From contig NZ_CP139089.1 of assembly GCF_038024855.1 (NCBI RefSeq), positions 62,001 through 126,000 on the forward strand: a stretch of DNA of 64,000 nt, read 5' to 3'. Source of the DNA: Methylocella tundrae (lineage in GTDB: Bacteria; Pseudomonadota; Alphaproteobacteria; Rhizobiales; Beijerinckiaceae). Below the pieces are notes generated by a model. That model did no database searches, was not told where the DNA came from, and saw nothing but the letters and a program-made list of their open reading frames with translations. Within the stretch, counting starts at the first letter, position 1; each line of letters begins with the position of its first letter. The translations under genes were made by a program, and so were the position numbers. Positions 16,893-39,782 of the stretch are shown here, in pieces.

Positions 16893-17768
16893 GTTTCCCC
16901 CAATCGCCTTTGTGGCGTTTTTCCGTCACTGACGACTTCGTGACGGCGGGAAACAAGCACATCGCCTTGGCGAAATCTTCCACGAAATTTCGATTGTTAT
17001 AATAATGGTCACATTATTGTTTGATAATTAGTGCGCTCTTTGGGTTAAGCTAGTTAAATAAGCTTACGTGACTTGTGCGGCGCGGCATACTGCAACGTTA
17101 TGGCGATATTACTGTAAAGCTAAAGGCTGGTGCTCCGGGGAGATTTCGTGGGCGAATCCGACATCGCGCCAGTTACGCGGCGAGCTCCGTCTTGCCGGTC
17201 CAAAGCTCGGCTTGCGCCGCCGCCTCGATGACGACGCGGTCTCGGCCGGAGGTTGCGTCTGCGAAGCGGTAGACAAGAAATTCTTTGGAACGCCGACGTC
17301 AGCCAGCGGATTGCGCCGCGATCTGCAGGACAAGACTCGCCGCTATGAGAGTAAGCGCCAGGCGCAAAGAACCTTTAAACAATATGAACGTCCCGGTCGT
17401 GCCGAGTGCGAAAGAAGCGATGTCGAACACTCCCGCTAGCGTCATGGAGCCGGCCTCAGGTCCAAGGTTTGGTCTGAGCTTACGCCCCGGCCGTCCCCAC
17501 TGTCGAGAACATTGCCTTCCTCCGCTCTCGCGCGACAAAACCGTCGATGGGCGAAGTTCGTTCAGTTGAAGGCGGCTGATGTTTCAGTGATTGAGTTGGA
17601 CCGGCGGCTCTGCCATGAGCGCATATATTGCGAGCGTTATCAGCGGGCAGACGAGGAGCGCAATGATAAGGGATGCCGGCTCAATCGCTCATTCTATGAG
17701 CTTTGAATTTTCCGACGGATCGCTGACGAGCATTTTGCGCCGTTTTCCTACCTGCTAAGTCTCTGACT
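16893..17768. other. long intergenic region with coding remnants next to the attachment site
   Basis: No complete gene is convincing. On the minus strand, 17,299-17,445 could encode a 48-residue hydrophobic peptide (starts MTLAGVFDIASFALG). Directly after its stop, 17,298-17,173 is open in the same frame and reads like real protein (SKEFLVYRFADATSGRDRV, ending TELAA) but has no start codon. This suggests a decayed gene. The rest is unassigned. Confidence 0.35.
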
Positions 17769-17787
17769 TATTGGAGGCCTCGCCCGG
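17769..17787. repeat. left attachment site (attL)
   Basis: TATTGGAGGCCTCGCCCGG occurs here and again at 39,764-39,782. There it is the 3' end of the tRNA-Cys gene (16 bases of tRNA including the CCA complement). The tRNA is incomplete here, so this is the copy left by site-specific integration. The integrase gene stops 103 bp away. Confidence 0.88.
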
Positions 17788-20198: not shown

Positions 20199-20630
20199 TT
20201 GGGCAAGCCAGGTCCATCTTTGTTTTTAACGCGGGCGTCGTTCATTTCGTTTTTGCGCGGGCGCCGAGGCGTGATTGTCCGCATGGCGCGCATGCTCTTT
20301 CCGGCCCGGAGGCAAAATTACTCGTTGAGTTTTTCGTTCAACGGCCACGCTTTCCACGCAACCTTTTCCTTCCTCGACATCGAGGGGTATTTCGTCGGCG
20401 AGATTTTTCTCACGCCTGAGAAAACCTCGAGCCAGCTCGAGGCTTTGGCGCGCGACGCTATGATCTTCGCAAGTCTCGCGCTTCAACATGGCGCGACGCT
20501 GGAATCCCTTAAGGCCGCGATGACGCGGGATGATCGTTTTGGCTACACATCTGTCGCGGGCCAAGCGATTGGCGCCGTCGCCGATATGGTCGAACACATC
20601 AAGGCGGTCGGCCTCCATGAGAATGCGTGA
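20199..20630 (+). CDS. TSCPD-like small protein
   Basis: A 143-residue protein starting at a TTG four bases after the preceding stop, with GGAGG about ten bases upstream; an internal ATG at 20,283 is an alternative. The central part (GHAFHATFSFLDIEGYFVGEIF, then ALARDAMIFASLALQHGATL) resembles the TSCPD domain found at the C-terminus of B12-type ribonucleotide reductases and in free-standing mobile-element proteins. Its stop overlaps the start of the primase gene, so it belongs to the replication operon. Function unknown. Confidence 0.6.
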   Translation: MGKPGPSLFLTRASFISFLRGRRGVIVRMARMLFPARRQNYSLSFSFNGHAFHATFSFLDIEGYFVGEIFLTPEKTSSQLEALARDAMIFASLALQHGATLESLKAAMTRDDRFGYTSVAGQAIGAVADMVEHIKAVGLHENA

Positions 20631-21867
20631 TCCTGCCTTTGAGGATTGGATTCTTCGCGCGCGAAATATCACCGTGCGGGGTGAACTGGAGCGGCGCGGG
20701 CTTTGGTCCAAAGCGATGGCTGGCGACAATGGCGTGCCGTGCCCCGGCTGCGGCGGCCGCGATCGCTTTGGCGTCAACACGCGCAAAAATCTTTGGAATT
20801 GCCGGGCGCTGGGAAGCGGCGGCGACGCCATCGCGCTCGCGCAGCATATCGACGGAACCGATTTCCTGGCCGCTGTGGAGACTGTGGCAGGCGAGCCGCC
20901 GCCGAACGGCCGATCGGCATTGACCGAGGATGAGCGAGAGGCGATCGAGCAACGCGCGCTGCGCGCGAAGGCTGATGATGCGCTGAAACGCGCGGCCGAC
21001 GCGGATGCGGCGGCGCGATTCCGGGAGCGAGAGCGCCGCGCCGCGCACCAGCTGTGGAAGGCGTCAACGCCGATCGCGCGGACGCCGGCGGAAGCCTATC
21101 TGCGGTTGCGCGGACTTGTAGCGCCGCCTGGCGCGCGCCTGCGTTTTCATCAGGCCGCGCCTTTCTGGGATCGACCGGAAGAGCAGGGCGGCCGCGTGAT
21201 CCATAAGGGCCCCGCCATGATCGCCGCGATCGAAGGCGCGGAGGGGCGCTTTCGCGGCGTGCAGCGGACCTGGATCGATCTTGCCCAGCCCAAGGGCAAG
21301 GCGCTGATCGCGCATCCCGAGACAGGCGAGATCCTGGCTTCGAAGAAGGCGCGGGGCTCGATCAAGGGCGGCACGATTTTGCTGCGGCGGGGCGGCGTCG
21401 CCTCGGATTTTCCCGGCGATCGGCGCGACACGGTAAGGCTCTTTATCGGGGAAGGGATCGAGACGGTGCTCGCGGTCTATTGCGCGCTCGAAGCGGCGCA
21501 TTCGCCGCTGCTCGACGGCGCGGAGTTTCGCACCTCTGTCGATCTCGGCAATCTTGCCGGCAAGGCGGCCGGGCGCGTCAGGCATCCGACTGAGATGCGA
21601 GCCGATAAGAACGGCCGTTTGCGTCCCGTCTATGTACCTGACAACGAGCCGAAGGATGACCCTGACTTTCCGCTGATCCCGGTCGCGGACAGCATCGAGG
21701 ATCTCTGGCTCCTGGGCGATGGCGACAGCGAGCCGTTTTTTACGCGCATGGCGATGGAGCGGTCGGGGAAGCGGTTCTCGCGCGCGCACCCGCGCCTGAC
21801 TGTGCGGCTGGCGATGGCCGCGCCGGGCATGGATTTCGACGATATGTGGTGCGGGGAGGGCGCGTGA
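20617..21867 (+). CDS. DNA primase with zinc finger and Toprim domain
   Basis: A 416-residue protein. The ATG at 20,617 lies inside the end of the previous gene and begins MRMRDPAFEDW. A zinc-binding part follows with Cys42, Cys45 and Cys62 (CPGCGGRDRFGV, LWNC). The linker at about 100-150 is helical and charged. The Toprim active site appears as LFIGEGIETVL near residues 276-286. This is the plan of phage and plasmid primases that make RNA primers. The helicase gene follows with a GTGA overlap, so the pair probably acts together at the repeat array beyond it. Confidence 0.85.
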   Translation: MRMRDPAFEDWILRARNITVRGELERRGLWSKAMAGDNGVPCPGCGGRDRFGVNTRKNLWNCRALGSGGDAIALAQHIDGTDFLAAVETVAGEPPPNGRSALTEDEREAIEQRALRAKADDALKRAADADAAARFRERERRAAHQLWKASTPIARTPAEAYLRLRGLVAPPGARLRFHQAAPFWDRPEEQGGRVIHKGPAMIAAIEGAEGRFRGVQRTWIDLAQPKGKALIAHPETGEILASKKARGSIKGGTILLRRGGVASDFPGDRRDTVRLFIGEGIETVLAVYCALEAAHSPLLDGAEFRTSVDLGNLAGKAAGRVRHPTEMRADKNGRLRPVYVPDNEPKDDPDFPLIPVADSIEDLWLLGDGDSEPFFTRMAMERSGKRFSRAHPRLTVRLAMAAPGMDFDDMWCGEGA

Positions 21868-23480
21868 GCAAAGACAAAGTTGTCGTGGCCGTCGAGAGCG
21901 CGGAGATCCTCGCGTTTCCGGCGAACGCCTCTCTCGCCGGCGATAGGGGCGGCGGCGATCCGCCGAAGCAGCCGCCAAGCGATCCCCCAAATGATCCGCC
22001 GGCAGGCGGCGATGACGACGGCGTCGACGGAATCGTCTCGCGCCTCAACGCCGAGTATTCGCTCGTGCTGATGGGCTCGCGCGCGCTCATCATGCGCGAA
22101 ATGCCGGACGCGCCGATCGAGGATCGAACGCGGGTTCTCTCGCTCGATGCGTTCAAGGCCTATTTCTCGAACCGCGGATCGAATGTCATAAAACGCGAGC
22201 GCCAGGAGGACGGCAGCTGGGTCGAGAGAAAGCGGTTCGTGAAATGGGCGCCCCAATGGCTGAACTCAAGATATCGCCGGACATTCGACGGGCTTGAGTT
22301 CTTTCCAGATCCCAACAACGCGGCGGGTACGAAAGGCTATTTCAACCTCTGGCGCGGGTTCAACTGCAAGCCGGACGCCTCGCCGCCGCAAGAGCGCGTC
22401 AAAAAATACAAGACGTTCCGCGACCATCTCTTCACGAATATCTGCAACGCCGATAAAGCCATTTTCGATTGGGTCTGGGCCTGGTGCGCGCATATCGTTC
22501 AGCGGCCGCGCGAGCGCATCGGCACCGCGATCATTCTGCGCGGCAAGATGGGAACCGGCAAAACGAAGTTCGGCGAGATCATCGGATCGCTGTTCGAATC
22601 CCATTACTTCCTCGTCGACGATCCGCGCTACCTCATCGGCCAGTTCAACGCGCATATGGCGAGCTGCCTGCTGCTACAGGTGGATGAGGGCTTTTGGGCC
22701 GGCGACAAGGCGGCCGAGGGCCGGCTCAAAGGCCTGATCACGGCGCCGCGCCAGATGATCGAAGCCAAGGGCATCGATCCCATTCCGATCAAAAACTATG
22801 TACGGCTTGTGTTCACTTCAAACGAAGATTGGGTCGTGCCGGCCGGACTTGATGAGCGTCGGTTTTGCGTCCTCGATATCGCCCCGCATGCCGCGCAGAA
22901 CCACGCCTATTTCGCCGAGATGGATCAAGAGATCGCGAACGGCGGCCGGGAGGCGCTGCTCGCTGATCTGCTTAGCCTCGAGCTCGACGCGCCGGGAGCG
23001 CCGAACCTTCGCGTTATTCCGAAGACGGCGGCGCTGCTCGAGCAAAAGCTGCGCTCTCTCGACGCCGTGACGGCCTGGTGGTTCGAGCGGCTGACGGACG
23101 GCACGACGACGCGGCGCGGCGGCGAATGGCGCAGGCAAATTCCCGTCGACACCATGTTCGACGATTATGTGAACAACGCGGAAAAGGTCGGCGTCAGACG
23201 CAAGGCCGAAAAGATCAGTCTGGCAATGAAGCTGCGCAAGCTCGTGCCTGGGCTCGAGACGCGAAAGCAAAGCATGACGATCGATCTTTCGGACGGATCG
23301 ATGGTCCAGCGCCGCGTCTCCTGCTTCCTGTTTCCAAAGCTCGGCGAGTGCCGCGCGGCCTTTTCCGCGGCCGTCGGCCAATCCGTCGAATGGAACGACC
23401 CGGATGATGGCGAGAGCGGAGCGTCTTCGCGTGAAAATGACGATGAAGATGCGCTGAATGATAGGCAACCTGACTTCTAG
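21864..23480 (+). CDS. phage/plasmid primase-associated helicase (DUF5906-like)
   Basis: A 538-residue protein from a GTG start that overlaps the primase stop (GTGA), with GGGAGGG upstream. After a proline-rich linker (residues about 30-52) comes a P-loop ATPase: Walker A GKMGTGKTKF at about 229-238 and Walker B LLLQVDEG at about 266-273, then FTSNEDWVVP as a sensor-like segment. This arrangement is that of SF3-like helicases used to start phage, satellite and plasmid replication. The iteron-like array begins directly at its stop codon. Confidence 0.85.
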   Translation: MSKDKVVVAVESAEILAFPANASLAGDRGGGDPPKQPPSDPPNDPPAGGDDDGVDGIVSRLNAEYSLVLMGSRALIMREMPDAPIEDRTRVLSLDAFKAYFSNRGSNVIKRERQEDGSWVERKRFVKWAPQWLNSRYRRTFDGLEFFPDPNNAAGTKGYFNLWRGFNCKPDASPPQERVKKYKTFRDHLFTNICNADKAIFDWVWAWCAHIVQRPRERIGTAIILRGKMGTGKTKFGEIIGSLFESHYFLVDDPRYLIGQFNAHMASCLLLQVDEGFWAGDKAAEGRLKGLITAPRQMIEAKGIDPIPIKNYVRLVFTSNEDWVVPAGLDERRFCVLDIAPHAAQNHAYFAEMDQEIANGGREALLADLLSLELDAPGAPNLRVIPKTAALLEQKLRSLDAVTAWWFERLTDGTTTRRGGEWRRQIPVDTMFDDYVNNAEKVGVRRKAEKISLAMKLRKLVPGLETRKQSMTIDLSDGSMVQRRVSCFLFPKLGECRAAFSAAVGQSVEWNDPDDGESGASSRENDDEDALNDRQPDF

Positions 23481-23801: not shown

Positions 23802-24416
23802 ATGACTGAGGCTTTGGGATTGGCGAGCAGCGAGGATCGCGATTGGTATGCCGCCTGGATGAACGCGAAGATCGAAAGCGAGATGGGCCGCGACGACGGC
23901 GCGGCGCTGGCGTGCGGCGCAAGTGTTGTCTGGTATGTCGCCTACACCAACGTAAAATCAGAAAAGCGCGCGGCTGAAGGGCTCACTCGAAAAGGGTTCG
24001 AGACGTTCCTGCCTGTTGGCCTCAAGCGAGTGAAGCTGCGGAAGAAACGGGTGTTGGCTTCAAGGCTGATGTTTCCGCGCTATCTATTCATTGGCTTTCC
24101 AGAGGGAAGCTCGTGGTATTTGCTCCGTCAAACCGATGGGATCGAAGCGGTGTTGGCGAATGATGGGCGTCCCCTTGCAGTGCCGACGCCGCTGATCGTC
24201 GGCATGCAGCGGGAGCAGATGTCGGGCGTCTACGATGAGCGGGATCCGGCGAAGATCGGGGCAGGCGATGAAGTGAAATTCACGCACGGAGCCTTTGGAG
24301 GAAGGCGTGGCCGGTGTGTCGCGATCGCCGGAACGCGTGCGGAGGTTGTGATCGAATTGTTGAAACGTGAGGTAGTTGTCAAAATAGGGCTTGACCAGCT
24401 GATTAACGTAGTTTGA
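23802..24416 (+). CDS. NusG-like transcription elongation/antitermination protein
   Basis: A 204-residue NusG paralogue. The NGN domain covers about residues 45-125 (WYVAYTNVKSEKRAAEGL, then LMFPRYLFIGFP), and a KOW motif lies near residues 150-180 (AGDEVKFTHGAFGGRRGRC). Housekeeping NusG sits with secE and rplK, so this is a specialised copy like RfaH or LoaP. Such proteins often control one long operon. It stands alone between the repeat array and the packaging genes, so control of late prophage transcription is a fair guess. It carries an N-terminal extension of about 40 residues. Confidence 0.85.
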   Translation: MTEALGLASSEDRDWYAAWMNAKIESEMGRDDGAALACGASVVWYVAYTNVKSEKRAAEGLTRKGFETFLPVGLKRVKLRKKRVLASRLMFPRYLFIGFPEGSSWYLLRQTDGIEAVLANDGRPLAVPTPLIVGMQREQMSGVYDERDPAKIGAGDEVKFTHGAFGGRRGRCVAIAGTRAEVVIELLKREVVVKIGLDQLINVV

Positions 24417-24533
24417 CCTGCGATTCAGGACCTGCGGTCTAACGTGTCGAGTCGATATGTACCGCACCCAGGCGACGGAGACCCTGTTGGGAAACCGATC
24501 ATCGCCCCGTAAGGGTCACTGCGTCCCGAGTTC

Positions 24534-24568
24534 AGCCCCGCGCCGATGGTTGCGGGGCTTTCTTTTTG
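24534..24568 (+). terminator. Rho-independent terminator
   Basis: AGCCCCGC at 24,534-24,541 pairs with GCGGGGCT at 24,552-24,559, followed by TTCTTTTTG. It lies between the NusG-like gene and HNH and is the strongest intrinsic terminator seen here. A NusG paralogue next to a terminator ahead of the late genes suggests a possible read-through control point. Confidence 0.7.
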
Positions 24569-24588
24569 TGTGGTGGGCCGTCGTGAAA

Positions 24589-24918
24589 ATGATCAAACCT
24601 CTGCGCATCTCCAAGCAGCGGGCAATTGCGGCCATCCCGCCGAAGCGTGCGGATCCGTATTACTTGTCAGCTCAGTGGAAGGAGGATCGGGCCAGCGTGC
24701 TCGATCGAGACGGCCACATGTGCACGGTGCCGGGTTGCGGCAAACAGGCGCGCGTCGTCGATCATGGGCGCGCGCGCCGATGGGGCGGTTCTGACAAAAA
24801 GGAAAACCTGCGATCCCTGTGCGACGATCACGACCGAGAGTTCAAGGAACGGCCGGACGGCTCGCGGAAAGGCATCGTCGAGGGTAGGGGGTTTGAAAAG
24901 TGCGACTCGCGCCCGTAG
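24589..24918 (+). CDS. HNH endonuclease
   Basis: A 109-residue protein beginning MIKPLRISKQRA; a GTG six bases earlier is an alternative start. Motifs of the HNH fold are visible: CTVPGC (zinc knuckle), VVDHGRARRWGGSDKKENL with the first His and the Asn, and LCDDHDREF with the second Cys and last His. Small HNH enzymes directly upstream of terminase genes are part of the packaging machinery of many HK97-like phages, and the position fits that role. Confidence 0.87.
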   Translation: MIKPLRISKQRAIAAIPPKRADPYYLSAQWKEDRASVLDRDGHMCTVPGCGKQARVVDHGRARRWGGSDKKENLRSLCDDHDREFKERPDGSRKGIVEGRGFEKCDSRP

Positions 24919-25003
24919 CAACCGGGTTTTCCCTCACGCGCGGATTTTTTTTATCAGCTCGGATCGTTTGATTATCCGTTTGATTGAGCCGAATTCAAAC
25001 ACC

Positions 25004-25615
25004 ATGACGGAGGCCCCTAAAAAATCGAAGCGCGGCGGCAAGCGTGCCGGTGCCGGCCGCAAGCCCAAGGGGTACACGCCGCCCTCCGCGCTTTCCGGCC
25101 TTGATCTGAAAGCTGCCGCCATCGCGGCGACGCCGGACGAGATCGAATCGGGCGCCCGCATCCATGCCCGGACCGCGCTCGAGTCGCTCAAAAAGGTGAT
25201 GCTCAATTCCGACAGCGAATCGGCCCGTGTCGCCGCCGCCAACACCATCCTCGATCGCGGCTTCGGCAAGCCCTCGACGGACACGGGCATCGACATGGCG
25301 CTTCCATTGTTCGATCAGGTGTTTCTCAAGACCACGCCGGGCGAGATGATGGAGGAGGCCCGCAAGCTCGCCCCGCTGGCCCTCGCGGTGCTCGACAAGA
25401 TCGCCCAGAACAGCCCGAGCGATTCGGCCCGCGTGTCCGCCGCCCGCGCGCTGCTCGATCGCGGCCTTGGCGCTGTCTCGACGGCTCGCCTGGAATCCTA
25501 TCGCAGCGACGCCAAGGCCATCGGCAAGAAGGATCTCGCCTCGGCCGCGGCCGCCTCCGCCGGCGAGGGCACCGATTGGGGCGATGATCTCAATCCCGGG
25601 GCGGCGCTGAACTGA
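25004..25615 (+). CDS. putative terminase small subunit
   Basis: A 203-residue protein whose ATG at 25,004 follows an AT-rich leader. The N-terminus is very basic (KKSKRGGKRAGAGRKPKG), as in DNA-binding small terminases. Two similar segments follow: ESARVAAANTILDRGFGKPS near residues 73-92 and DSARVSAARALLDRGLGAVS near 145-164, suggesting an internal duplication. Its stop overlaps the start of the large subunit gene (TGATG). The assignment depends on position and these motifs; no nuclease or ATPase site is present, as expected for TerS. Confidence 0.7.
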   Translation: MTEAPKKSKRGGKRAGAGRKPKGYTPPSALSGLDLKAAAIAATPDEIESGARIHARTALESLKKVMLNSDSESARVAAANTILDRGFGKPSTDTGIDMALPLFDQVFLKTTPGEMMEEARKLAPLALAVLDKIAQNSPSDSARVSAARALLDRGLGAVSTARLESYRSDAKAIGKKDLASAAAASAGEGTDWGDDLNPGAALN

Positions 25616-27297
25616 TGGCCGATTGGAACACGGCCTGCCTCGACTGGGAGCGGCGCCTGCTCGAAGGCCGCTCGCTCGTCCCGGAGCTACCGCTGTTCGA
25701 GGATCAGCGCGCGCGCGGGCTCCGCATCTTCAAGCGCCTCCGGGTGCCGGACATGCGCGGCCTGCCGATGATGGGTGACGTCGCCGGTCCCTGGCTGTTT
25801 CCGATCGTCGAGGCGATCTTCGGCTCCTATGACCCGATCCTGCAGCGGCGGATGATCCAGGAGTTCTTCCTGCTCATGCCGAAGAAAAACGGCAAGACCT
25901 CGACGGGCGCGTCAATCATGGTCGACGCGCTGATCATCAACAACAGGCCGGAGGGCGAATTCGTCCTGATCGCGCCGACCAAGGAAATCGCCGGCATCGC
26001 CTTCAAGCAGGCGCGCGGCACGATCAAGGTCGATCCAGAGCTCGACAAGCTGTTTCAGGTCCAGGACCACCTCAAGACCATCACGCATCGGCGCATGGGC
26101 TCGACGCTGCAGGTCAAGGCCGCGGATACGGACGTCATCACCGGCGGCAAGCAGGTCGGCACGCTCATTGACGAGCTGCATGTACTGGCGTCCAAATCCA
26201 ACGCGGCGGATATTCTGGTCGAGCTGCGCGGCGCGCTCGCCGCCCGCCCCGACGGCTTCCTGATCATCATCACCACGCAATCGAAAGCGCCGCCGCGTGG
26301 CGTCTTCAAATCAGAGCTGCAAAAGGCGCGCGATGTGCGCGACGGCAAATTGCAGCTGCCGCTTCTGCCGGTCCTCTATGAGCTGCCGCTCCATCTGGCC
26401 AAGGATGACGGCTGGAAAAAGCGGACGTTCTGGCCGCTGGTCAATCCCAACCTCGGCCGCTCCGTGGATGAGGCGTTTCTCGAACGCGAGCTGGTCTCGG
26501 CGGTCAGCGAGGGCAAGGCGCAGCTGGCCCTGTTCGCCAGCCAGCATTTCAACGTCGAGATCGGCCTCGCGCTCAGCGCCGACGCCTGGCCCGGCGCTGA
26601 ATTCTGGGAACAAAACGCGGAGGCCGGCCTCACGCTCGCAGAGATCGTCGAGCGCTCGGACGTCGTCACCATGGGCGTCGACGGCGGCGGCCTGGACGAT
26701 CTGCTCGGGGTCGGCGTCGTCGGCCGTGATAAGGAGACGCGTAAATGGCTGTCATGGTGCCACGCCTTCGCGCACAATTCGGTGCTCGAGCGCCGCAAGG
26801 GCGAGGCCTCGAATCTCCGCGATTTCGAGGCGGATGGCGATCTCGAGATCGTCAAGCGCATGTCGGAGGCGTTCGAGTCGGTCGCCGACATCGCGGAGGA
26901 AATCGACCAGGCCGGGGTGCTCGCGAGCGTCGGGCTCGATCCTTACGGCGTCGCCGAAATCGTCGAGGCGATGAAGCTGCGCGGCATCGAGGGCGATGAC
27001 CGCATCGTCGGCGTCAGCCAGGGCTACAAGCTGACCGGCACGATCAAAATGGCCGAGGTCAAACTCGCCGATGGCAATCTCAGGCATTGCGGCGCGCCGA
27101 TGATGGCCTGGTGCGTCGGCAACGCCAAGGTCGAACCCAAGGGCAACGCCATCGTGGTCACCAAGCAGGCCTCGGGCAGCGCCAAGATTGATCCGCTCAT
27201 GGCGCTCTTCAACGCGGTGGCGCTGATGAGCCAGAACCCAGAACCCCTCGGCGGCCGCTCGGTCTACGAGGACGGCCACAACCTGTTGGTAATCTGA
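25615..27297 (+). CDS. terL: phage terminase large subunit
   Basis: A 560-residue packaging motor of the Terminase_1 type. The ATPase domain shows a Walker A-like MPKKNGKTST at about residues 86-95 and Walker B GTLIDELH at about 182-189. The nuclease domain begins at VTMGVDGGGLDDLLG (about 352-366), with further acidic residues in GLDPYG. The length is normal and the gene appears intact, which makes it the best marker that this element was once an HK97-like tailed prophage. It starts one base inside the small-subunit stop. Confidence 0.93.
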   Translation: MADWNTACLDWERRLLEGRSLVPELPLFEDQRARGLRIFKRLRVPDMRGLPMMGDVAGPWLFPIVEAIFGSYDPILQRRMIQEFFLLMPKKNGKTSTGASIMVDALIINNRPEGEFVLIAPTKEIAGIAFKQARGTIKVDPELDKLFQVQDHLKTITHRRMGSTLQVKAADTDVITGGKQVGTLIDELHVLASKSNAADILVELRGALAARPDGFLIIITTQSKAPPRGVFKSELQKARDVRDGKLQLPLLPVLYELPLHLAKDDGWKKRTFWPLVNPNLGRSVDEAFLERELVSAVSEGKAQLALFASQHFNVEIGLALSADAWPGAEFWEQNAEAGLTLAEIVERSDVVTMGVDGGGLDDLLGVGVVGRDKETRKWLSWCHAFAHNSVLERRKGEASNLRDFEADGDLEIVKRMSEAFESVADIAEEIDQAGVLASVGLDPYGVAEIVEAMKLRGIEGDDRIVGVSQGYKLTGTIKMAEVKLADGNLRHCGAPMMAWCVGNAKVEPKGNAIVVTKQASGSAKIDPLMALFNAVALMSQNPEPLGGRSVYEDGHNLLVI

Positions 27298-27299
27298 AC

Positions 27300-27464
27300 A
27301 TGAGCCTCATCTCGCGCATTTCCAAAGCAGTTGCGCCCCGCGATCTCATGCTCGCCGTGGGCCTCGGCCTTCTCGGTTATGGCCTGTCGCTGGTCAGCGT
27401 CCCCGCGGCCTTCGCCGCGCCGGGCGCGATCCTGATTGGCGTCGCCATCTTCGGGGTGCACTGA
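27300..27464 (+). CDS. small membrane protein, 54 residues
   Basis: The ATG is three bases after the terL stop. The product has a short basic start (MSLISRISKAVAPRDL) and two hydrophobic stretches separated by a turn (MLAVGLGLLGYGLSLV and PGAILIGVAIFG). Tiny membrane proteins between terminase and portal genes are common in Rhizobiales prophages. The function is unknown. Tight spacing on both sides supports it as a real gene. Confidence 0.65.
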   Translation: MSLISRISKAVAPRDLMLAVGLGLLGYGLSLVSVPAAFAAPGAILIGVAIFGVH

Positions 27465-27465
27465 T

Positions 27466-28269
27466 TTGGGCTTTCTCTCATCCCTGTCCAGGTCGTCGGC
27501 GCCTCCTGTCGAAAAATCCGCCGCCGGCGCGGCCATGCCCGCGCAAGGCTTCCTGCCGACGCTGGGCGCGACGCCCTCCGCCACGGGCCTCAGCATCAGC
27601 CAGGGCACGGCGATGGCCGTCTCGGCCGTCTATTGCTGCACGACGAACCGCCGCGCCATCGCGGTCGGCGCCGGAACCATCAAGTCGACGCTGAAAGCGA
27701 CGGCGGCCCGCATCTCCGGCCAGGCGCTCGGCGCACTCTATTATGGCGTGACGCCGACGGTAGGTCAGACCGCCTACAGCATGGCGGAGGCGCACTCCGT
27801 TCCGTCCGCGACTCCATGGACCGTGACGATCGCGCCTCCCGGCAGCGGCGTTTTCTTCAGCGACCAGGGCGTTGTCTATGCGGCGACCGGGCTGCCGTTC
27901 ACCCGGGTCGCAACTGTGACGGCGGCCGGACAATATTCGGTTGTCCCGGCGACCGGCGTCTATACCTTCGGCACGGCGGACCAGAGCGCGCTGGTTCTGA
28001 TCAGTTACGGCTATACCGTGACGGCGGCTGGTCAGTCCATTGCGGTCGGCAACCCGATCCTCGGCAACACCGTCTCTTTCGGCGGCGTGCTCTATTTCAT
28101 CGATCCGACCACGAACAAGACGGGCTCTTTCAGTTTCTACAACGCGGTGTCGTCGAAGTTCAGTTTTGGAACCAAGCTGACCGATTTCACCTTGCCAGAT
28201 TTCGAGGCCTCGCTCTTCGTCAACGCGGCTGGTCTTCTCGGCAATTGGTCCTTCCCCGACGGCTATTGA
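27466..28269 (+). CDS. chimeric ORF: portal N-terminus fused to a tail-like protein
   Basis: Translation from a TTG directly after the preceding stop gives 267 residues. The first 55 or so (GFLSSLSRSSAPPVEKSA, then TPSATGLSISQGTAMAVSAVYCC) look like the start of an HK97-type portal protein, where the AVYxC segment begins the conserved core. From about residue 62 (VGAGTIKSTLKATAARISG) the composition changes to a beta-rich, Ala/Gly/Ser/Thr protein with no portal features, resembling a tail tube or decoration protein. The junction is near 27,630-27,660. An in-frame deletion that removed portal, protease, capsid and connector genes would explain it. Confidence 0.65.
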   Translation: MGFLSSLSRSSAPPVEKSAAGAAMPAQGFLPTLGATPSATGLSISQGTAMAVSAVYCCTTNRRAIAVGAGTIKSTLKATAARISGQALGALYYGVTPTVGQTAYSMAEAHSVPSATPWTVTIAPPGSGVFFSDQGVVYAATGLPFTRVATVTAAGQYSVVPATGVYTFGTADQSALVLISYGYTVTAAGQSIAVGNPILGNTVSFGGVLYFIDPTTNKTGSFSFYNAVSSKFSFGTKLTDFTLPDFEASLFVNAAGLLGNWSFPDGY

Positions 28270-28279
28270 GGAATTTTCC

Positions 28280-28618
28280 ATGGCGATTGATCAAGAAATC
28301 ACGCTTGGCGCAAAGACATGGCGTCTGCGGCCTTTGACCTGCAAACAGGTCGAGCAGATCGAACCCTTCGTCGCCAGGGCCGGCGTCGGAAACGGCATGG
28401 CGATGGCGCTGCAGGTGATCGCGGTCGCGATCGGCCGCGATCATCCGGATGACGTGGCGGCGCTCTGGGACGTCGAGGCCACGAAGACAGAAATCGACGC
28501 CGCCTCGCGCGTCGTCCTGCTCATGGGCGGCTGGATCGAGACGAAGGATGCCGCGCCGGGGGAAGCCGAAGCGCCGAAGACCGGCGCCGAACCTGGGGCT
28601 GGATCCGAAGCCGCCTGA
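28280..28618 (+). CDS. phage tail assembly chaperone-like protein
   Basis: A 112-residue protein beginning MAIDQEITLGAKTWRLRPLT, with a helical centre and an acidic, alanine- and proline-rich tail. It sits between a tail-like gene and the tape-measure gene, as lambda gpG-type chaperones do. The -1 frame is open from about 28,453 through the next gene, so a G/GT-style ribosomal frameshift could extend it. I assign it by position, size and this overlap rather than by a strong motif. Confidence 0.6.
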   Translation: MAIDQEITLGAKTWRLRPLTCKQVEQIEPFVARAGVGNGMAMALQVIAVAIGRDHPDDVAALWDVEATKTEIDAASRVVLLMGGWIETKDAAPGEAEAPKTGAEPGAGSEAA

Positions 28619-28626
28619 AAACAGCG

Positions 28627-28842
28627 ATGGGGTGGACCTCGGCGCAAGTCGACGAGGAGCCATGGCTCGAGGTCCGCGATCTCTTCGACTATTGGGCCGA
28701 ATATCCGCCTGTGCATGAAATCCTGAAAATCGTGCACAGGATCGAAGCGAAGAAGCCGAATGCGGCGCCTCAGGGCGCATCGCAGGGCATCTCGATAGAA
28801 GCGTTGCGACGTCAGTTCCCCGATGGAATCATGCGGGGATGA
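28627..28842 (+). CDS. second tail-chaperone frame (gpT-like)
   Basis: A 71-residue frame, eight bases after the previous stop and in the -1 frame to it: MGWTSAQVDEEPWLEVRD, then a tyrosine- and proline-containing helix region. It may be translated alone from 28,627 or as the C-terminal extension of the preceding protein by frameshifting. Function is inferred from position before the tape-measure gene. Confidence 0.55.
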   Translation: MGWTSAQVDEEPWLEVRDLFDYWAEYPPVHEILKIVHRIEAKKPNAAPQGASQGISIEALRRQFPDGIMRG

Positions 28843-29254
28843 GCTTGCTGCGCAGCTTAAGTGATGGCAAGTAGGGCCATCACGCGAGCCGCCACGATGC
28901 TGGATTCCCTCATATCCTTTCTTAAGTTCCTGATCTCTCTAGCGGTCTTTCTCACGATAGCCGGATGGTTATTGGGCCATAAGCACATAAGCATCCGGTT
29001 CTAGCGGATGAAATCCGACGCTTGGCGCCGGCGCGAGATCGCCGCTTTCGACCCAAGACCAAAGTCTAATTTTCTGACGTCGCTCATTTTTCGAGTTTTT
29101 CAACAGTATCCGCCACAAGACGACATGCAAGCCGCGTCCCCTCTGCGATTGGCTGTCTGGGTTATAGGTTCGATATAAGGGGGCTTGCGGCGGGCCACGA
29201 CCTAGCCGGAAGTCATCTTCACAGGCCCGACCTCATAGTCCTAACCGGATTGCA
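28843..29254. other. intergenic region with possible 35-residue membrane peptide
   Basis: At 28,897-29,004 a frame encodes MLDSLISFLKFLISLAVFL and a short basic tail (HKHISIRF), a single-helix peptide. Its ribosome-binding site is weak. The rest holds no recognisable gene and lies between the tail chaperones and the reversed cyclase gene. It probably marks the left edge of the inserted cyclase cargo. Confidence 0.35.
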
Positions 29255-30292
29255 TCACTCCCGAATTTCTCGGGTCAATTCCTCGATTACCTTGAATTCC
29301 GTGACCAGCGGATCGTCGAGTGAATACACCGTACTTAGCTCTCCCTGGCGCTTGAGCGCAAACTGCCCGACGTTTGCGAATGGCCATGAACCTTTGGCGT
29401 TTTGCTGCACTGGTTCGCTCAGAGCAAGCGCCCGCCGGATCGTGCGGGTCAGGGCTTCCAGCTGCGCTGCCAAGTTTACGGTATCCCCTAGCACCGTATA
29501 GTCCATCTTGATGGCGGAGCCGATATTACCCTGGATCACCTCTCCCTCCGAAAGTCCAAAGCCGCAATACAGGAGATTCATCGGCTGGCACTGCCCGGCC
29601 ACTCGCCGAAGCCGCCGGACATCGTCGAGCGCTTCAAGGCAGGCTTCGATGGCGGCATCAGCATAATCGGGCGGGAAGTGCGCCATGACACAGTCGCCGA
29701 TGTATTTGGTCACCTCACCGCCATGCTGGACGATACGTCGGCAACAGACGTCGAGATAGGCGTTGACTACGGCGGTGACCTCTTCCACAGGGAACTTCTG
29801 CGACATAATGGAAAACCCGACCATGTCGCCGAAAAGGATGATCTTACGGGTTTTTTTGACTGGGATTTCGAGCGGGTTGAGTCCTTGGGTTAGGAACTGC
29901 AGGACCGACGGTTGGGTGTAGCGCTCGATGATGCGATGCGACTGGGTGATGTTTTCCAGCATGATCCGAACGGCTTTCAGGATCATCCCGTTGGCCTCCC
30001 CAAGGCGGATGGTCCGCATTGACCAGTTCGGAAACAGGCGCTCCGTGACGCCCATTTCCGCCTTCAGTATCATCAGGTCCCGGTGGCGTGGATCGCGACG
30101 AATTCGTTCCAGAAGCCGATCAACCACAACCTCCTCGCCCTCGAGAATTTGAAAAAAAAACTCATGGGCCGACAGCAGGATCCCCGTCACGCCGATTTTC
30201 CGGTTGTTCTTGCTGGAACTGCGGCTGATCGCGCTGATCTCTTCCTCCGGCAGGGATTTCGCCACGGTGCTGACGTACATGATCCTCTTCAT
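29255..30292 (-). CDS. BLUF-domain photoactivated adenylyl cyclase homologue
   Basis: A 345-residue fusion of a flavin-binding blue-light sensor (BLUF, residues 1-97) and a class III nucleotide cyclase (about 148-340), joined by a helical linker (NITQSHRIIERY). Its layout and motifs match the Beggiatoa photoactivated cyclase bPAC. BLUF residues Tyr6, Asn30, Gln48 (FFFQILEGE), Trp90 and Met92 are present. Metal ligands Asp156 (FGDMVGFS) and Asp200 (KYIGDC) and ATP-selecting Lys196 and Thr266 are kept. The transition-state arginine of NxxxR is Gln277 (NLAAQLEAL), which may weaken catalysis. It stands backwards among tail genes as prophage cargo. Product cAMP is inferred from Lys196/Thr266. Confidence 0.93.
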   Translation of the reverse strand: MKRIMYVSTVAKSLPEEEISAISRSSSKNNRKIGVTGILLSAHEFFFQILEGEEVVVDRLLERIRRDPRHRDLMILKAEMGVTERLFPNWSMRTIRLGEANGMILKAVRIMLENITQSHRIIERYTQPSVLQFLTQGLNPLEIPVKKTRKIILFGDMVGFSIMSQKFPVEEVTAVVNAYLDVCCRRIVQHGGEVTKYIGDCVMAHFPPDYADAAIEACLEALDDVRRLRRVAGQCQPMNLLYCGFGLSEGEVIQGNIGSAIKMDYTVLGDTVNLAAQLEALTRTIRRALALSEPVQQNAKGSWPFANVGQFALKRQGELSTVYSLDDPLVTEFKVIEELTREIRE

Positions 30293-30749
30293 CGCGCTAT
30301 CGGATCGCTGCTGCTCGGCAAAGGACTGGCATTAAATGCATTAAATCAGTGTCGTCGTAATGGCAATGTGGCTTCTTTTTTACAGTTCCTCACCGGTAGG
30401 ATACCCATAGTGCCAACTTGCGCCAGCTCCGAGGATGAAGACGGCTGGGTAGTGGGTCAGTTCGAATATCTGCTAAGGGAGGAACTCTGCCGTTTGACTC
30501 GTGCCGTCGAACGACCGCTTTCGCTTCCTATCGCCGGAAAACTGCCATTCCGCTCCCGGGCCGGCCACGCCATAGACAGAATGGCCGCTTACCAAATTGC
30601 AGGCCCGGGAGCGGACAGGCAGAAATCCACCCGTTGCAGACATAGGGGGTCGGCCACCAAGCGTTTGATCTTATGCAATATTAACTCTAAATCGCATTTT
30701 TCTTCCTTGCGAGGCCGCCTTTGGGCGGCCTTTTCCATTGGAGCGTTCG
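30293..30749. other. intergenic region with long inverted repeat and terminator-like hairpin
   Basis: TCCGCTCCCGGGCC at 30,549-30,562 is perfectly inverted at 30,602-30,615, leaving a 39-base loop. Farther on, GGCCGCC at 30,712-30,718 and GGCGGCC at 30,724-30,730 form a short stem followed by TTTTCC. That second hairpin could end a transcript just before the tape-measure gene. No gene is recognised; the cyclase promoter should lie at the left end. Confidence 0.5.
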
Positions 30750-32069
30750 GTGGCGACAAAAGACGTGACCTTGAAATTCGGCGCCGACGTTTCCGGCGTC
30801 GCGACGTCGATGCTTCAGGCCTCGCGCTCCGTCAATGAATTCACAGGCAACGTCCGCTCATCGATCGAGAACGCCAACAGCGTTTTCAAGGAAATGGGCA
30901 GCATCATCGCCGATGTCGGCAAAGTGGCTGTCGGAATCGTCGGCGCCAACGCCGCGGTCAAAATCTTCGCGGCGAGCAATGAGGGCGTCGCTGTCGCGAC
31001 GGCTCTGAGCGGCTCCGCGATGGGGCGCGCGGCCCTGGCGGCGGGCGGCTATGCCTCAAGCCTGCTTTCGACGGCGTCGGGGGCCGTCGTCGCGACGGTC
31101 GCCGCCAATGCGCTGGGCTATGCCTTGATGATGGTTCCCGTGGTCGGCGGGGCCGCGTTCGCCTATCTCGAAGCCAAGGCGCTCGAGACCGCAGCGACGA
31201 TCGCTCAGGTCGGCCGTCAGATGGCCTTCGCCGGAAATGTCTCAGCGATCGAGGGCGCCGCCAACGGCTTCGTCTACACCAACAAGATCATCGGCGATTA
31301 CGTCGGAGAGCTGCAGAAAATTCCGGGCGTAACCGAAAAAGACGGCGCGGCCATTCAGGGCTTGTTCGGATCAATCCACAATTACTCTCAAACCGTCAAT
31401 GACGCCCTTGTCGAGCTGTTGACCAAATATGCCGGGTCGAGCGACCAGGCCAAGTCTACGGCCAAGGAATGGGCAGCTGTTTTTGATGACCCGAACTCAA
31501 AAGGTCTCTCATTCCTGCAGACCTTGGCGGGAGTGACGTCGGGTGAGCTTGAGCAGTTCCGCCAGGCGCAGATGACCGGCAATGCCAACAAGATGAACGC
31601 CGTCATCTATGACGCGCTGATCAATAGGCTCGAGGCTGTTAGCAAGGAATCGATGCGCGCAACCGCCGAAATGGCGCAGAACGCCTATGCGTTTGGCACC
31701 GGCGACAAATTATATCGAAAACTGACCGATAGCCTTCGGCAGCAGAATGAAGAGCTGAATAAGAACGTTAGCGTCTTGCGCGCCCGCGCCGCCGCGGTGA
31801 GCGACCAGCCTATGACTCTCGAGCAATCAGTCCGCGCGGTCAACGCCGTCCTGCAGGCCGATAATCCGCTTGCCTCGCAGCTCGACGCGGTCAACGCCCG
31901 CATCGCGACGCTGCGCTCCGGACTGCAGGGCGCGACGGGCGACGCGGCGAAGATGATCTCCGGTTTCGAGGGATTTTCGGCCAAAGCCAAAATCGACAGC
32001 GACGGCAAATATCGCGCGGGCTTCGGCTCGGAGAGCTGGCTCGGGGAATCTGGACGGATCGATAAGTAG
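30750..32069 (+). CDS. tail tape-measure protein, truncated by IS insertion
   Basis: Start chosen at GTG 30,750, which has GGAG seven bases upstream; a TTG at 30,738 is less likely. The 439-residue product begins ATKDVTLKFGADVSGV, is alanine-rich and helical with a hydrophobic centre (residues 60-140), and has coiled-coil-like stretches near 325-350. These are usual for tape-measure proteins that set tail length. Near the C-terminus, MISGFEGFSAKAKIDSDGKY resembles the start of a GH24-type lysozyme domain. The frame then ends inside the left end of an IS3-family element, so the lysozyme domain and the rest are lost. Confidence 0.75.
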   Translation: MATKDVTLKFGADVSGVATSMLQASRSVNEFTGNVRSSIENANSVFKEMGSIIADVGKVAVGIVGANAAVKIFAASNEGVAVATALSGSAMGRAALAAGGYASSLLSTASGAVVATVAANALGYALMMVPVVGGAAFAYLEAKALETAATIAQVGRQMAFAGNVSAIEGAANGFVYTNKIIGDYVGELQKIPGVTEKDGAAIQGLFGSIHNYSQTVNDALVELLTKYAGSSDQAKSTAKEWAAVFDDPNSKGLSFLQTLAGVTSGELEQFRQAQMTGNANKMNAVIYDALINRLEAVSKESMRATAEMAQNAYAFGTGDKLYRKLTDSLRQQNEELNKNVSVLRARAAAVSDQPMTLEQSVRAVNAVLQADNPLASQLDAVNARIATLRSGLQGATGDAAKMISGFEGFSAKAKIDSDGKYRAGFGSESWLGESGRIDK

Positions 32070-32246: not shown

Positions 32247-33176
32247 TTATCCAGTTTTGAGTTCGCTCCGGCGGATTGTGATGCTCGTTTGAGCGGGGTG
32301 AGCAACGGGCGCAGGCGCGGAGCCTACCATCGAGCGCCGCGCCTGCACCCGTTGTGGTTCGAAGGTTGCGGCATATTCGGCCGGGGTGCGCCAGCCGAGG
32401 CGAGAGTGAGGTCGCCTGGTATTGTAATCGTCTCGCCAGGCCGCCAACATGGCTCTGGCATGCGGTAGCGACCGGAACAGCGTCTCATTCAAGAGTTCAT
32501 CCCGCAACCGCCCATTGAAGCTCTCGATGAAGGCGTTCTGAACCGGTTTGCCTGGCGCGATGTAATGCCAGGCCACCAGACTGTCGTCCGCCCAGCGCAA
32601 GATCGCGTTCGAGGTGAGTTCGCTGCCGTTGTCGCTGACCACCATCTTGGGCTTGCCGTGCTCATGGATCAGACGATCCAGCTCCCGTGCGACCCTCAGG
32701 CCGGAGAGCGAGGTATCAGCCACCAGGCCAAGGCATTTGCGGGTGCAATCGTCGACGACCGCCAGAATGCGGAAGCGGCGTCCGTCGATGAGCTGATCCG
32801 AGACAAAGTCCAGCGACCAGCGGTCGTTGGGGGCAAAGGGGATCAGCATCGGCGCTCGCGTCCCGATCGCCCGCTTGCGCCCGGCACGACGCCGGACGGC
32901 GAGCTTCTCCTCTCGATAGAGCCGGAACAGTCGCTTGTGATTGACCACATAGCCCTCCCGTCGCAGCAGGACATGCAGGCGGCGATAGCCGAACCGGCGG
33001 CGCTCGTGCGCCATGGCCTTCATCCGCTCGCGCAGGGCGCCGTCATCCGTGCGGGCCGTCGCGTAGCGAACCGTCATCCGGCAGCAGTCGATCACCTTGC
33101 ACGCCCGCCGCTCGCTCATCTCGAAGGCTGATCGAAGATGCGCGACGGCCTCTCGCTCGGCAGCGGGCGTCACCAT
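32247..33176 (-). CDS. inner IS transposase OrfB (IS407-like)
   Basis: A 309-residue DDE integrase-type transposase. The rve core shows the first Asp in [11 protein letters not shown], the second in [11 protein letters not shown], and the Glu in [17 protein letters not shown]. An N-terminal helix-turn-helix and HTH_21-type segment ([16 protein letters not shown]) precede it. The start ATG lies within a run of seven A at the end of orfA, the usual site for a -1 ribosomal frameshift that makes the OrfAB fusion. It appears complete. Confidence 0.93.
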
Positions 33177-33436
33177 TTTTTTCCAAGAAGATCTTTCAGC
33201 GCCGCATTGTCGAGCATAGCGTCCGCCAGAAGCCGCTTCAGCCGCGTGTTCTCGTCCTCAAGCGTCTTCAGCCGCTTGGCCTCCGACACATCCATGCCGC
33301 CGTACTTGGTCTTCCACTTATAAATGCTCGCGTCGCTGACGCCGTGCTTGCGGCACAGATCGGCTACCGAAACCCCGGCCTCGTGCTCCTTCAATATCCC
33401 GATGATCTGCTCTTCGCTGAAACGGCTGCGCTTCAT
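33170..33436 (-). CDS. inner IS transposase OrfA
   Basis: An 88-residue protein starting [20 protein letters not shown], with a helix-turn-helix ([19 protein letters not shown]) and a leucine-rich helix ([17 protein letters not shown]) for multimerisation, as in all IS407-type OrfA proteins. Its end overlaps orfB across GGAAAAAAATGG, a standard slippery sequence. An in-frame ATG further upstream (33,472) is unlikely to be used. Confidence 0.9.
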
Positions 33437-33500
33437 TCTCCGGTCCTCATCATGGGCCAGAGCAAACTTCAAACCGGATAAGCCTCAGGGGGCAAGGTCA

Positions 33501-33504
33501 GTTC
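33501..33504. repeat. 4-bp target duplication, right copy
   Basis: GTTC directly after the inner IS right end; pair of the copy at 32,225-32,228. Confidence 0.85.
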
Positions 33505-33697
33505 ATCCGAACCAGATCAGGGACTGGAAGTCGCAATTGCTTGAAGGGGCGGCCGGGGTTTTCGGCGCCGACGCCACGAACGTCCAAGCCGCGCCGGTGG
33601 ATTTGAAGGCGCTTCACGCCAAAATCGGCGAGTTGGCATTGGAAAACGATTTTTTGGAAGGCGCGCTCATCAAGGCCGGCATGCTGAGCGCAAAGCG

Positions 33698-34525
33698 ATG
33701 ATCGACCGCAATCACGATCTTCCTATCTCCCGTCAGGCCAAGATCCTAAATATCAGTCGCGGCAGCGTCTATTACAAACCTCGCCCGGTATCGGCCGAAG
33801 ACCTCGCGCTGATGCGCCGCATCGACGAATTGCATCTGGAATTCCCGTTCGCGGGCAGCCGGATGTTGCGGGATTTTCTGAACCGCGAGGGCGTCGCCGC
33901 GGGCCGCCGCCATGTCGCCACGCTGATGAAGCGCATGGGCATCGAGGCGATTTATCGCCGGCCAAACACGTCAAAACCCGCGCCAGGTCACAAGATTTAC
34001 CCGTATTTGCTGCGCGGATTGAAGGTCGATCGCCCGAACCAGGCGTGGGCGATGGACATCACCTACATCTCGATGGCGCGCGGCTTCGTCTATCTCGCCG
34101 CGGTCGTCGACTGGTTCAGCCGTCGCGTGCTCAGCCACCGCGTGTCAATCACAATAGAGGCCGATTTCTGCGTCGAAGCGGTGGAGGAGGCGTTGGCGAA
34201 GTATGGCAAGCCGGGGATTTTCAATACGGATCAGGGAAGCCAGTTCACCAGCGAGGCGTTCACCAGCGTGCTGATCGCCAACAAGATCGCAATCAGCATG
34301 GATGGCAAGGGCGCCTGGCGCGACAATGTTTTCGTCGAGCGCATCTGGAAGTCGGTCAAGTACGAAGAGGTTTATCTGCACGCCTATGACAGCGTCGGCG
34401 TGGCGCGCACCTCGATTGCCCGATATCTAAACTTTTACAATCGGCGGCGCCCGCATTCGAGCCTTGACCGACGCACGCCGGACGAGGCTTATTTCGAACC
34501 GACGCCCATCTTGGCGGCGGCCTGA
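33698..34525 (+). CDS. outer IS3-family transposase OrfB
   Basis: A 275-residue DDE transposase. An HTH_21-like region (FPFAGSRMLRDFLNREG) leads into the catalytic domain: AWAMDITYISM (first Asp), FNTDQGSQFTS (second Asp) and ERIWKSVKYEEVYL (Glu). The end NFYNRRRPHSSLDRRTP is the standard IS3 C-terminus. Its ATG overlaps the orfA stop. The gene is intact, but its partner orfA is interrupted. Confidence 0.93.
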   Translation: MIDRNHDLPISRQAKILNISRGSVYYKPRPVSAEDLALMRRIDELHLEFPFAGSRMLRDFLNREGVAAGRRHVATLMKRMGIEAIYRRPNTSKPAPGHKIYPYLLRGLKVDRPNQAWAMDITYISMARGFVYLAAVVDWFSRRVLSHRVSITIEADFCVEAVEEALAKYGKPGIFNTDQGSQFTSEAFTSVLIANKIAISMDGKGAWRDNVFVERIWKSVKYEEVYLHAYDSVGVARTSIARYLNFYNRRRPHSSLDRRTPDEAYFEPTPILAAA

Positions 34526-38810: not shown

Positions 38811-39650
38811 ATGCCAAACTGTTCAGACTTCCGGCGCGTCGATCCGGTGCGGCCGGCCGCTGCCTATATCGGCGGCAAAAAGCAATTGGCGGCCGCGATC
38901 GTCGCCAGGATCGAAGCGGCGCCGCACAGAACCTATGCCGAGCCCTTCGTCGGCATGGGGGGCGTCTTCCTGCGCCGGCGATTCGCGCCGCCGTCCGAAG
39001 TGATCAACGATCTCTCGGGCGACGTCGCCACTTTCTTCCGCATCCTCCAGCGGCACTACGTCGCGTTCATGGATATGCTGAAGTTTCAGCTGACCAGTCG
39101 AAGGGAGTTCGATCGCCTCGTCGCGACCGATCCCGCGACCCTGACTGACCTCGAGCGCGCCGCCCGATTCCTTTATCTCCAGCGCACAGCCTTTGGCGGC
39201 AAGGTCGCCGGCCGAAACTTCGGCGTCTCGCCAGGGTTGCCAGGCCGATTCGACGTGACCAAGCTGGCGGAGATCCTGACCGCGCTCAGCGAGCGCCTCG
39301 CCGGCGTCGTGATCGAAAACCTTGCCTATGGCGAATTCATCGACCGATACGATCAGGCGGGGACGCTCTTCTACCTTGATCCGCCTTACCTCGGCACCGA
39401 GCACTTCTACGGCGCCGGCGCCTTCACGCGCGCGGACTTCGGCCGTCTGGCCAAGCAGCTCGAGGCGATCGCGGGCGCCTTTATCTTAACGGTCAATGAT
39501 CTGCCCGAAACGAGGTCAATCTTCTCGGCCTTTGATCAGGAACAGATCGGCGTGACCTACACGGCGGCGGAGGGCGACGCGAAGCGCGCCTCTGAGCTGA
39601 TCGTGTCGCGAGTCGCGACGCGCAAGCAAGCTACGTTTTCATTCGATTGA
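38811..39650 (+). CDS. D12-class DNA adenine N6-methyltransferase
   Basis: A 279-residue enzyme with the Dam/D12 order of motifs: AAYIGGKKQL near residues 17-26, the AdoMet-binding AEPFVGMGGVFLRR at about 43-56, and the catalytic FYLDPPYLG (DPPY) at about 187-195. It would methylate adenine in a short DNA site; the recognition sequence cannot be read from the protein. It is the last gene of the element, next to attR. No restriction enzyme gene is beside it, so it is probably an orphan methylase that protects or marks element DNA. Confidence 0.9.
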   Translation: MPNCSDFRRVDPVRPAAAYIGGKKQLAAAIVARIEAAPHRTYAEPFVGMGGVFLRRRFAPPSEVINDLSGDVATFFRILQRHYVAFMDMLKFQLTSRREFDRLVATDPATLTDLERAARFLYLQRTAFGGKVAGRNFGVSPGLPGRFDVTKLAEILTALSERLAGVVIENLAYGEFIDRYDQAGTLFYLDPPYLGTEHFYGAGAFTRADFGRLAKQLEAIAGAFILTVNDLPETRSIFSAFDQEQIGVTYTAAEGDAKRASELIVSRVATRKQATFSFD

Positions 39651-39724: not shown

Positions 39725-39763
39725 GTGTATAAATAGTTCAACGATATCAATGTGCGGCTGAAG

Positions 39764-39782
39764 TATTGGAGGCCTCGCCCGG
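39764..39782. repeat. right attachment site (attR)
   Basis: Second copy of the 19-bp TATTGGAGGCCTCGCCCGG. Sixteen bases are the 3' end of the intact tRNA-Cys gene, including the encoded CCA. Confidence 0.88.

Follow-up and report, generated by a model that had tools for sequence, protein, structure and literature searches.

A defective prophage of about 22.0 kb, integrated in a tRNA-Cys gene of Methylocella tundrae, carries a gene for a homologue of photoactivated adenylyl cyclases (PAC) in reverse orientation relative to the phage late genes. The analysed stretch, hereafter the window, comprises 64,000 nucleotides of contig NZ_CP139089.1, and its features are listed in Table 1. We consider it fairly probable that the gene is a horizontally acquired PAC of the methanotroph type, a reversed passenger in a since-decayed Methylocella prophage, serving as a weak, light-driven source of cAMP on the host side. 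A light-regulated second-messenger enzyme is an unusual cargo for a prophage remnant, and searches of the open-licence PMC literature yielded no report of a PAC carried by a prophage.

Table 1. Features of the prophage and its cargo (positions in the window).
Feature	Position	Strand	Remark
Left att repeat	17763..17787		25 nt, 23/25 identical to right copy
Integrase	17890..19071	-	Phage_integrase; phrog_1; beside left att copy
Two primase/helicase-type ORFs	20530..23480 (20530-21867, 21846-23480)	+	
NusG-like antiterminator	23802..24416	+	
HNH endonuclease	24457..24918	+	
Frame with terminase small subunit-like part	24626..25615	+	Weak match; true start inside frame
Terminase large subunit	25615..27297	+	
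Late-region ORF	27436..28269	+	phrog_8234-like (unknown function)
Portal-start remnant, 111 bp	27522..27632	+	80% like start of the sister prophage's portal gene (L115 992-1102)
Small late gene	28280..28618	+	Tail-chaperone-like, by position only
Second small late gene	28627..28842	+	Chaperone-like, by position only; left neighbour of cargo
Cargo-holding interval	28843..30749		1,907 bp; exact cargo borders approximate
PAC homologue	29255..30292	-	BLUF (residues 1-92) and class III cyclase (152-321), 345 aa; Gln277, Tyr197
Inverted repeat	30542..30622		Two 24-nt arms, 88% complementary; upstream of PAC gene; single copy in genome
Tape-measure-like gene	30750..32069	+	439 aa; named by position and length; right neighbour of cargo
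IS3-type element ORFs	32247..33472	-	
Second IS3-type transposase	33698..34525	+	
Dam-like D12 DNA methyltransferase	38811..39650	+	
Right att repeat	39758..39782		Overlaps 3' end of tRNA-Cys (39767-39840, minus strand)

The PAC gene had been placed at 29255..30292 by a sequence-only reading, and these borders are exact: the minus-strand ORF runs from ATG to stop and has no internal stop codons. Pfam identifies the BLUF domain with an E-value of 6.2e-28 and the Guanylate_cyc domain with 1.7e-10. Among solved structures the best match is OaPAC (5x4t; E 1.8e-103, residues 1-332), followed by bPAC (5m27; E 1.3e-94, residues 1-328), which puts the assignment of the ORF to the PACs far beyond chance and bears out both the BLUF-cyclase fusion and the bPAC-like layout proposed in that reading. 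The ORF thus has the architecture of the bPAC/OaPAC type, with a BLUF domain ahead of a class III cyclase in a single chain of about 350 aa. All eight residues that had been named are present, Tyr6, Asn30, Gln48 and Trp90 of the flavin site as well as the metal-binding Asp156 and Asp200, Lys196 and Thr266, and none of them varies across 120 aligned proteins, counting at each position the proteins with a letter there. The canonical transition-state pair is incomplete, as Asn273 is kept and Arg277 is replaced by Gln; this Arg is not an absolute requirement, given that bPAC R278A still responds to light. By descent the window protein is a member of the bPAC/OaPAC type; as an active PAC it is putative. 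A product other than cAMP, either cGMP or another nucleotide, is highly improbable: substrate choice is deduced from sequence, which leaves some room for this alternative, but the base-selecting Lys196 and Thr266 correspond to bPAC K197 and T267 (excerpted text of PMC8522238) and are invariant in the family. The AlphaFold model of the protein, built on a 29-sequence alignment, has a mean pLDDT of 86.2 and a pTM of 0.70.

In class III cyclases an Asn and an Arg stabilise the transition state. Position 277, omitted from the earlier list of residues, was mapped by spacing (K197, D201, T267 and R278 in bPAC vs K196, D200 and T266 here) to bPAC R278, the transition-state residue according to the excerpted text of PMC8522238. 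Arg occupies this position in 115 of the 119 proteins with a letter there and Gln in the other four, namely the window PAC, its relative P0004 and the pair P0118 and P0120. P0004 is 89-90% identical to the window PAC and comes from a different source, and since it also has Gln277, the residue is not a sequencing error. A second altered site is the equivalent of bPAC F198 (residue 197), which is Tyr in the window PAC and, in the locus set, in 14/14 unfused methanotroph-type PACs and 17/17 fused ones, while Phe is found in 31 of the 34 PACs from other groups. Finally, the near-invariant Gly315 of the family is Arg in the window PAC.

PMC8522238 gives the bPAC mutant R278A a turnover in the light of 1.6 per min vs 93 in the wild type (approximately 50-fold lower) and in the dark of 0.0012 vs 0.057 per min, so that the light/dark ratio is 1,330 compared with 1,630 and the light switch is retained. 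For bPAC F198Y the same paper lists a dark turnover of at most 0.0024 and a light turnover of 17, and it describes LiPAC, a natural PAC, as silent in an oocyte assay. Because Arg277 is replaced by Gln and the F198-equivalent is Tyr, very low dark and low light activity is expected, that is, the window PAC would be a weak, dark-silent, light-activated cyclase that turns over far more slowly in the light than bPAC; R278A is merely a guide here, as Gln differs from Ala. With Gln277 in its sequence, a strong cAMP output of the window PAC should not be assumed.

Decay of the gene was also considered. The window PAC departs from the family at 2 of 77 sites conserved in at least 97% of its members; among 116 proteins with enough sites, 61 have no such departure, 35 have one and 20 have two or more, hence decay of the gene is unsupported by these counts. 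Twenty nine differences separate the window PAC from P0004 over 266 columns, mostly in variable columns (mean entropy 2.33 vs 1.24 at identical columns), two of them falling at conserved columns (314 and 315), and the terminal branch of the window PAC is 0.028 vs 0.094 for P0004. The sequence thus has no clear pseudogene pattern. No sigma-70-like site was found on the PAC strand between 28800 and 30800.

That the prophage is integrated is evident from its integrase and att repeats and from a related genome in which the site is empty. In this other genome of the same species (G060), one locus (L114) has the counterparts of window positions 14984-17787 and 39758-40368 next to each other, with a 25-base overlap at tRNA-Cys; the entire prophage, about 22.0 kb, is missing there. 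The stretch at 40369-41856, which includes a sulfate-permease-like gene beside the tRNA genes, also has no match in this locus. The cargo itself was delimited by comparison with a sister prophage in genome G008. There (L102) a gap of 109 bp separates the end of the second small gene, at 1391, from the start of the tape-measure-like gene, at 1501, whereas the equivalent genes are 1,907 bp apart in the window, and the cargo interval has no match to the sister prophage (L115, G008). The difference between 109 bp and 1,907 bp identifies the PAC gene as cargo. Together with the empty tRNA-Cys site it upholds the proposal that the gene is carried in a wrecked prophage. Two further tape-measure-like genes (L103 and L104), considered as additional empty sites, were uninformative given their distance or orientation.

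An assembly artefact, or a chromosomal gene that merely appears to be borne by a prophage, is scarcely credible. Although several of the prophage genes are named by position alone, such an explanation would have to account for the att repeats, integrase and terminase, for the empty site within the same species and for a sister prophage in which the gene pair is adjacent; moreover, the window lies within a 3.9-Mb contig of a genome of three contigs.

How the cargo arrived was approached from its flanks. A multi-copy element was rejected, since the cargo interval occurs once in the genome and so does the nearby inverted repeat. A plasmid of Methylocapsa polymorpha contains an 80% match to this repeat, which may on that basis be part of a mobile element. 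The Methylocapsa plasmid match was also the only one returned when remnants of a donor gene were sought in both flanks by blastn and tblastx against the fetched loci. A plasmid origin of the cargo was rejected as well: 376 plasmid records match, none of them covering 80% of the query. As to the IS region of the prophage, window positions 33501-34620 are 99.5% identical to a plasmid of Methylocella tundrae, a further 2,901 bases of which are 100% identical (rounded) to contig C2 of the window genome; these matches point to Methylocella, probably M. tundrae, as the host.

The decay of the prophage is apparent from its gene content. Among 18 prophage ORFs scanned besides the PAC gene (small ORFs being partly covered), no match to portal, head, connector or tail families was found, whereas the sister prophage has matches for portal, protease, major head and neck proteins; the portal, head, connector and full tail genes of a functional prophage were therefore not detected. 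The tape-measure-like ORF has 439 aa vs 1,036 aa in the sister prophage and is followed downstream by two IS3-type elements, and the short portal-start remnant suggests, by its sequence, a deletion from within the portal gene into the tail region. The PAC gene had been described as inserted backwards between tail-chaperone and tape-measure genes. Its reversed position among late genes stands, but the names of these genes follow from position and length, as the ORFs 28280-28618, 28627-28842 and 30750-32069 have no PHROG match. Between the primase-type and NusG-like genes, at 23480-23763, a GTCCGAACTGTCCGAACT-like unit recurs in both direct and inverted orientation; this cluster may be a regulatory or replication site.

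It had also been suggested that light is used to set lysogeny, and the PAC would then be a phage gene deciding between lysogeny and lysis via cAMP. This explanation we regard as quite improbable. The location of the gene inside a prophage speaks for it, as do the class III cyclase genes of some phages: such genes are annotated in Pelagibacter phage HTVC008M (KC465899.1) and in the Methylophilales phages Melnitz (MZ577095-MZ577098), in both cases without a BLUF match. However, the prophage is defective, with no portal, head or tail matches in the 18 ORFs and a shortened tape-measure-like gene, the PAC gene is opposed to the late genes, and the sister prophage has no PAC. Two scans of IMG/VR with short patterns found no PAC, and in 50,697 phage records there were 11 with partial matches and no full BLUF-cyclase. 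With a comparable gene missing from the phage collections searched, light-set control of lysogeny was rejected.

The distribution of the PAC in the host lineage is also that of an acquired gene. None of 14 other genomes of the genus Methylocella has it, so that close homologues at ordinary chromosomal places within the genus, which would have contradicted the cargo proposal, were looked for and not seen. No PAC at E<=1e-40 was found in 396 other genomes sampled from the order, with at most five candidates scored per genome, and a first sample of 59 relatives had no match spanning both domains among the matches listed; the collections searched may omit records near the window's own genome. Among the best 120 of 1,436 proteins and the best 80 of 196 loci, those close relatives that have a name come from gammaproteobacterial methanotrophs. 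In the tree the window PAC and P0004 fall in a set of 19 rows (SH-aLRT 97) with Methylotetracoccus and Methylolobus. The simplest reading of these sequences would be a transfer from the gammaproteobacterial methanotroph group, its direction depending on a quick tree in which many rows lack names (17 of the 19 rows in this set have no taxon). A search for pmoA had no match in the window genome and none in the control genomes either, which makes it no guide to the guild of the host.

Next we consider the neighbourhoods of these relatives. The PAC could be extracted from 65 of the 67 loci L022-L088. In 17 of them the BLUF-cyclase forms the C-terminus of a longer ORF whose front has DoxX, NDH-2-like and cNMP-binding parts (an overlap of the PAC and partner ORFs, or negative distance, being counted as fusion): fourteen are near full length (L046, L049, L050, L053, L056, L057, L061, L062, L065, L066, L071, L078, L085 and L086) and three are cut and match the end of the front part alone (L037, L048 and L077). 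In seven loci (L022:1551-7243, L023:10001-15367, L024, L028, L029, L030 and L081) a separate PAC gene lies at most 1.7 kb from a gene for a DoxX/NDH-2-like/cNMP protein, five on the same strand as the partner at 122-278 bp and two on the opposite strand. No partner was found in seven further methanotroph-type loci and 34 loci of other groups, some contigs ending near the PAC gene, nor in 12 loci with a match to the BLUF part alone.

The fusion proteins have about 1,200 aa and occur in Nitrosomonas and methanotrophs. Pfam recognised DoxX, Pyr_redox_2, cNMP_binding and BLUF in each of three fused proteins and a weak cyclase match in two of them, and the redox part of the unfused partner matches a non-electrogenic NADH:ubiquinone reductase of solved structure (9mqy, E 2e-13). 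No paper on such fusion proteins was found in the open-licence PMC literature. Unfused PAC genes are often near genes for metallo-beta-lactamase-fold proteins, one of them Apyc1-like, and for a small cytochrome c. The Apyc1 family is anti-Pycsar and cleaves cyclic nucleotides; together, the PAC, the metallo-beta-lactamase-fold protein and the cNMP protein look like a cAMP maker, breaker and target.

The cyclase part differs sharply between the two arrangements. All seven adjacent PACs keep D156, K196, D200, T266, N273 and R277, whereas both metal Asps are lost in 17/17 fused PACs of the locus set. A search restricted to long proteins, with the BLUF-cyclase part of a fused protein as query, retrieved 89 long fusions (P0121-P0209), each with Pyr_redox_2, cNMP_binding and BLUF. 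Their flavin site is retained (Tyr6, Asn30 and Gln48 in 89/89, Trp90 in 88/89), and none of the 87 scorable proteins keeps both metal Asps, D200 being present in 14 and D156 in none. The conserved Arg of the cNMP pocket is kept in 88 of the 89 fusions; the second residue after it is Ala in 7/7 PAC-adjacent proteins and Glu (84), Asp (4) or Gln (1) in the fusions. In the tree, all 17 fused loci group together as a single clade (SH-aLRT 100), with a long stem of 0.76 leading to it. Degenerate PACs of a second kind occur in methanotroph bins (L038 and L039), where a separate BLUF-cyclase has Ser for Asp200 and keeps Asp156.

These relatives make it necessary to weigh whether the window protein is itself a light-sensing pseudo-cyclase or an idle passenger, with a working BLUF domain and no useful cAMP. 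We consider this unlikely, if by no means far-fetched. Gln277 and Arg315 stand in for a near-invariant Arg and Gly, and the fused relatives have lost the cyclase (0/87 with both metal Asps) while keeping BLUF. On the other hand, the window PAC retains both metal Asps, Lys196, Thr266 and Asn273, unlike the pseudo-cyclases it is not joined to an oxidoreductase, and bPAC R278A is still active (excerpted text of PMC8522238).

We tentatively put forward, as a possibility open to real doubt, that the PAC lineage ancestral to the window gene serves methane and ammonia oxidisers as the sensor through which blue light switches respiration, and that the Methylocella copy escaped from it. A separate PAC would first have signalled by cAMP to the adjacent DoxX/NDH-2-like/cNMP-binding oxidoreductase; in one clade the genes would then have fused, the cyclase losing its metal sites and the cNMP pocket gaining an acidic residue, with a single-chain, blue-light-gated NADH:quinone oxidoreductase as the result. 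The simplest story for these sequences would thus be one fusion after which direct coupling replaced the cAMP wire. The Methylocella copy, for its part, would have escaped into the prophage and lost its partner, its cyclase being weakened and still switchable. The neighbours of the PAC relatives seem to point to electron transfer rather than lysogeny, and the relatives give hints of a blue-light control of respiration; in methanotrophs and Nitrosomonas they tie blue light and cAMP to an enzyme resembling type II NADH dehydrogenase. The seven methanotroph-type loci without a partner gene count against this proposal.

Reports that light inhibits ammonia oxidation, most of all at short wavelengths, go back decades, and in ammonia-oxidising bacteria the effect is mostly ascribed to direct inactivation of ammonia monooxygenase, according to the excerpted text of a 2022 paper (PMC9797979), which also states that the biochemical mechanisms need more research. 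Photoinhibition of ammonia oxidation is likewise called well documented in the excerpt of PMC9239080, in which BLUF goes unmentioned. As damage to ammonia monooxygenase is the accepted cause, light inhibition can be explained without a receptor; a blue-light receptor fused to a respiratory-type enzyme would offer a second, regulated explanation.

For the window gene itself the reading as a host-side passenger, rather than a phage control gene, can be spelled out as follows. A PAC gene of the kind found in gammaproteobacterial methanotrophs would have been acquired horizontally and inserted, reversed, between two late genes of a tRNA-Cys prophage in Methylocella, the prophage decaying afterwards. 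The protein would bind FAD and dimerise like bPAC and OaPAC; blue light would reposition its cyclase, which would convert ATP to cAMP, and the targets of this cAMP would be cyclic-nucleotide receptors of the host itself. In the window genome 13 cNMP-binding matches exceed the Pfam cut-off. The PAC query finds two more matches in this genome; with a single BLUF in total, these should be cyclases. The partner is missing: the best matches to a partner protein of 904 aa are an unfused NDH-2 (24%) and separate cNMP proteins. Since the partner is absent and cNMP-binding proteins are present, the PAC could be an orphan that feeds weakly into the general cAMP pool. Such a protein would parallel, in nature, the engineered low-leak mutant bPAC R278A and may serve optogenetics.

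Compared with known systems, the cyclases of phages HTVC008M and Melnitz match the window PAC in the cyclase part alone, at about 28-30% identity. The DoxX/NDH-2-like/cNMP/BLUF/cyclase-like fusions are homologous to it in their BLUF-cyclase part and differ in their length of about 1,200 aa, in never keeping both metal Asps (0/87) and in the acidic residue or Gln of the cNMP pocket. Its closest kin, among the best 120 of 1,436 proteins, are the PACs of gammaproteobacterial methanotrophs (Methylococcaceae), about 60-71% identical among those ranked below the 90% fragment level; they share Tyr197 but keep Arg277, and seven of their loci adjoin the DoxX/NDH-2-like/cNMP protein that the window genome lacks. 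Unlike OaPAC and bPAC, the window PAC is encoded in a prophage of an alphaproteobacterium, and it has Gln277 and Tyr197 where bPAC has R278 and F198; it agrees with them in domain order along almost the full chain, in the residues of the flavin and metal sites, and in the Lys and Thr.
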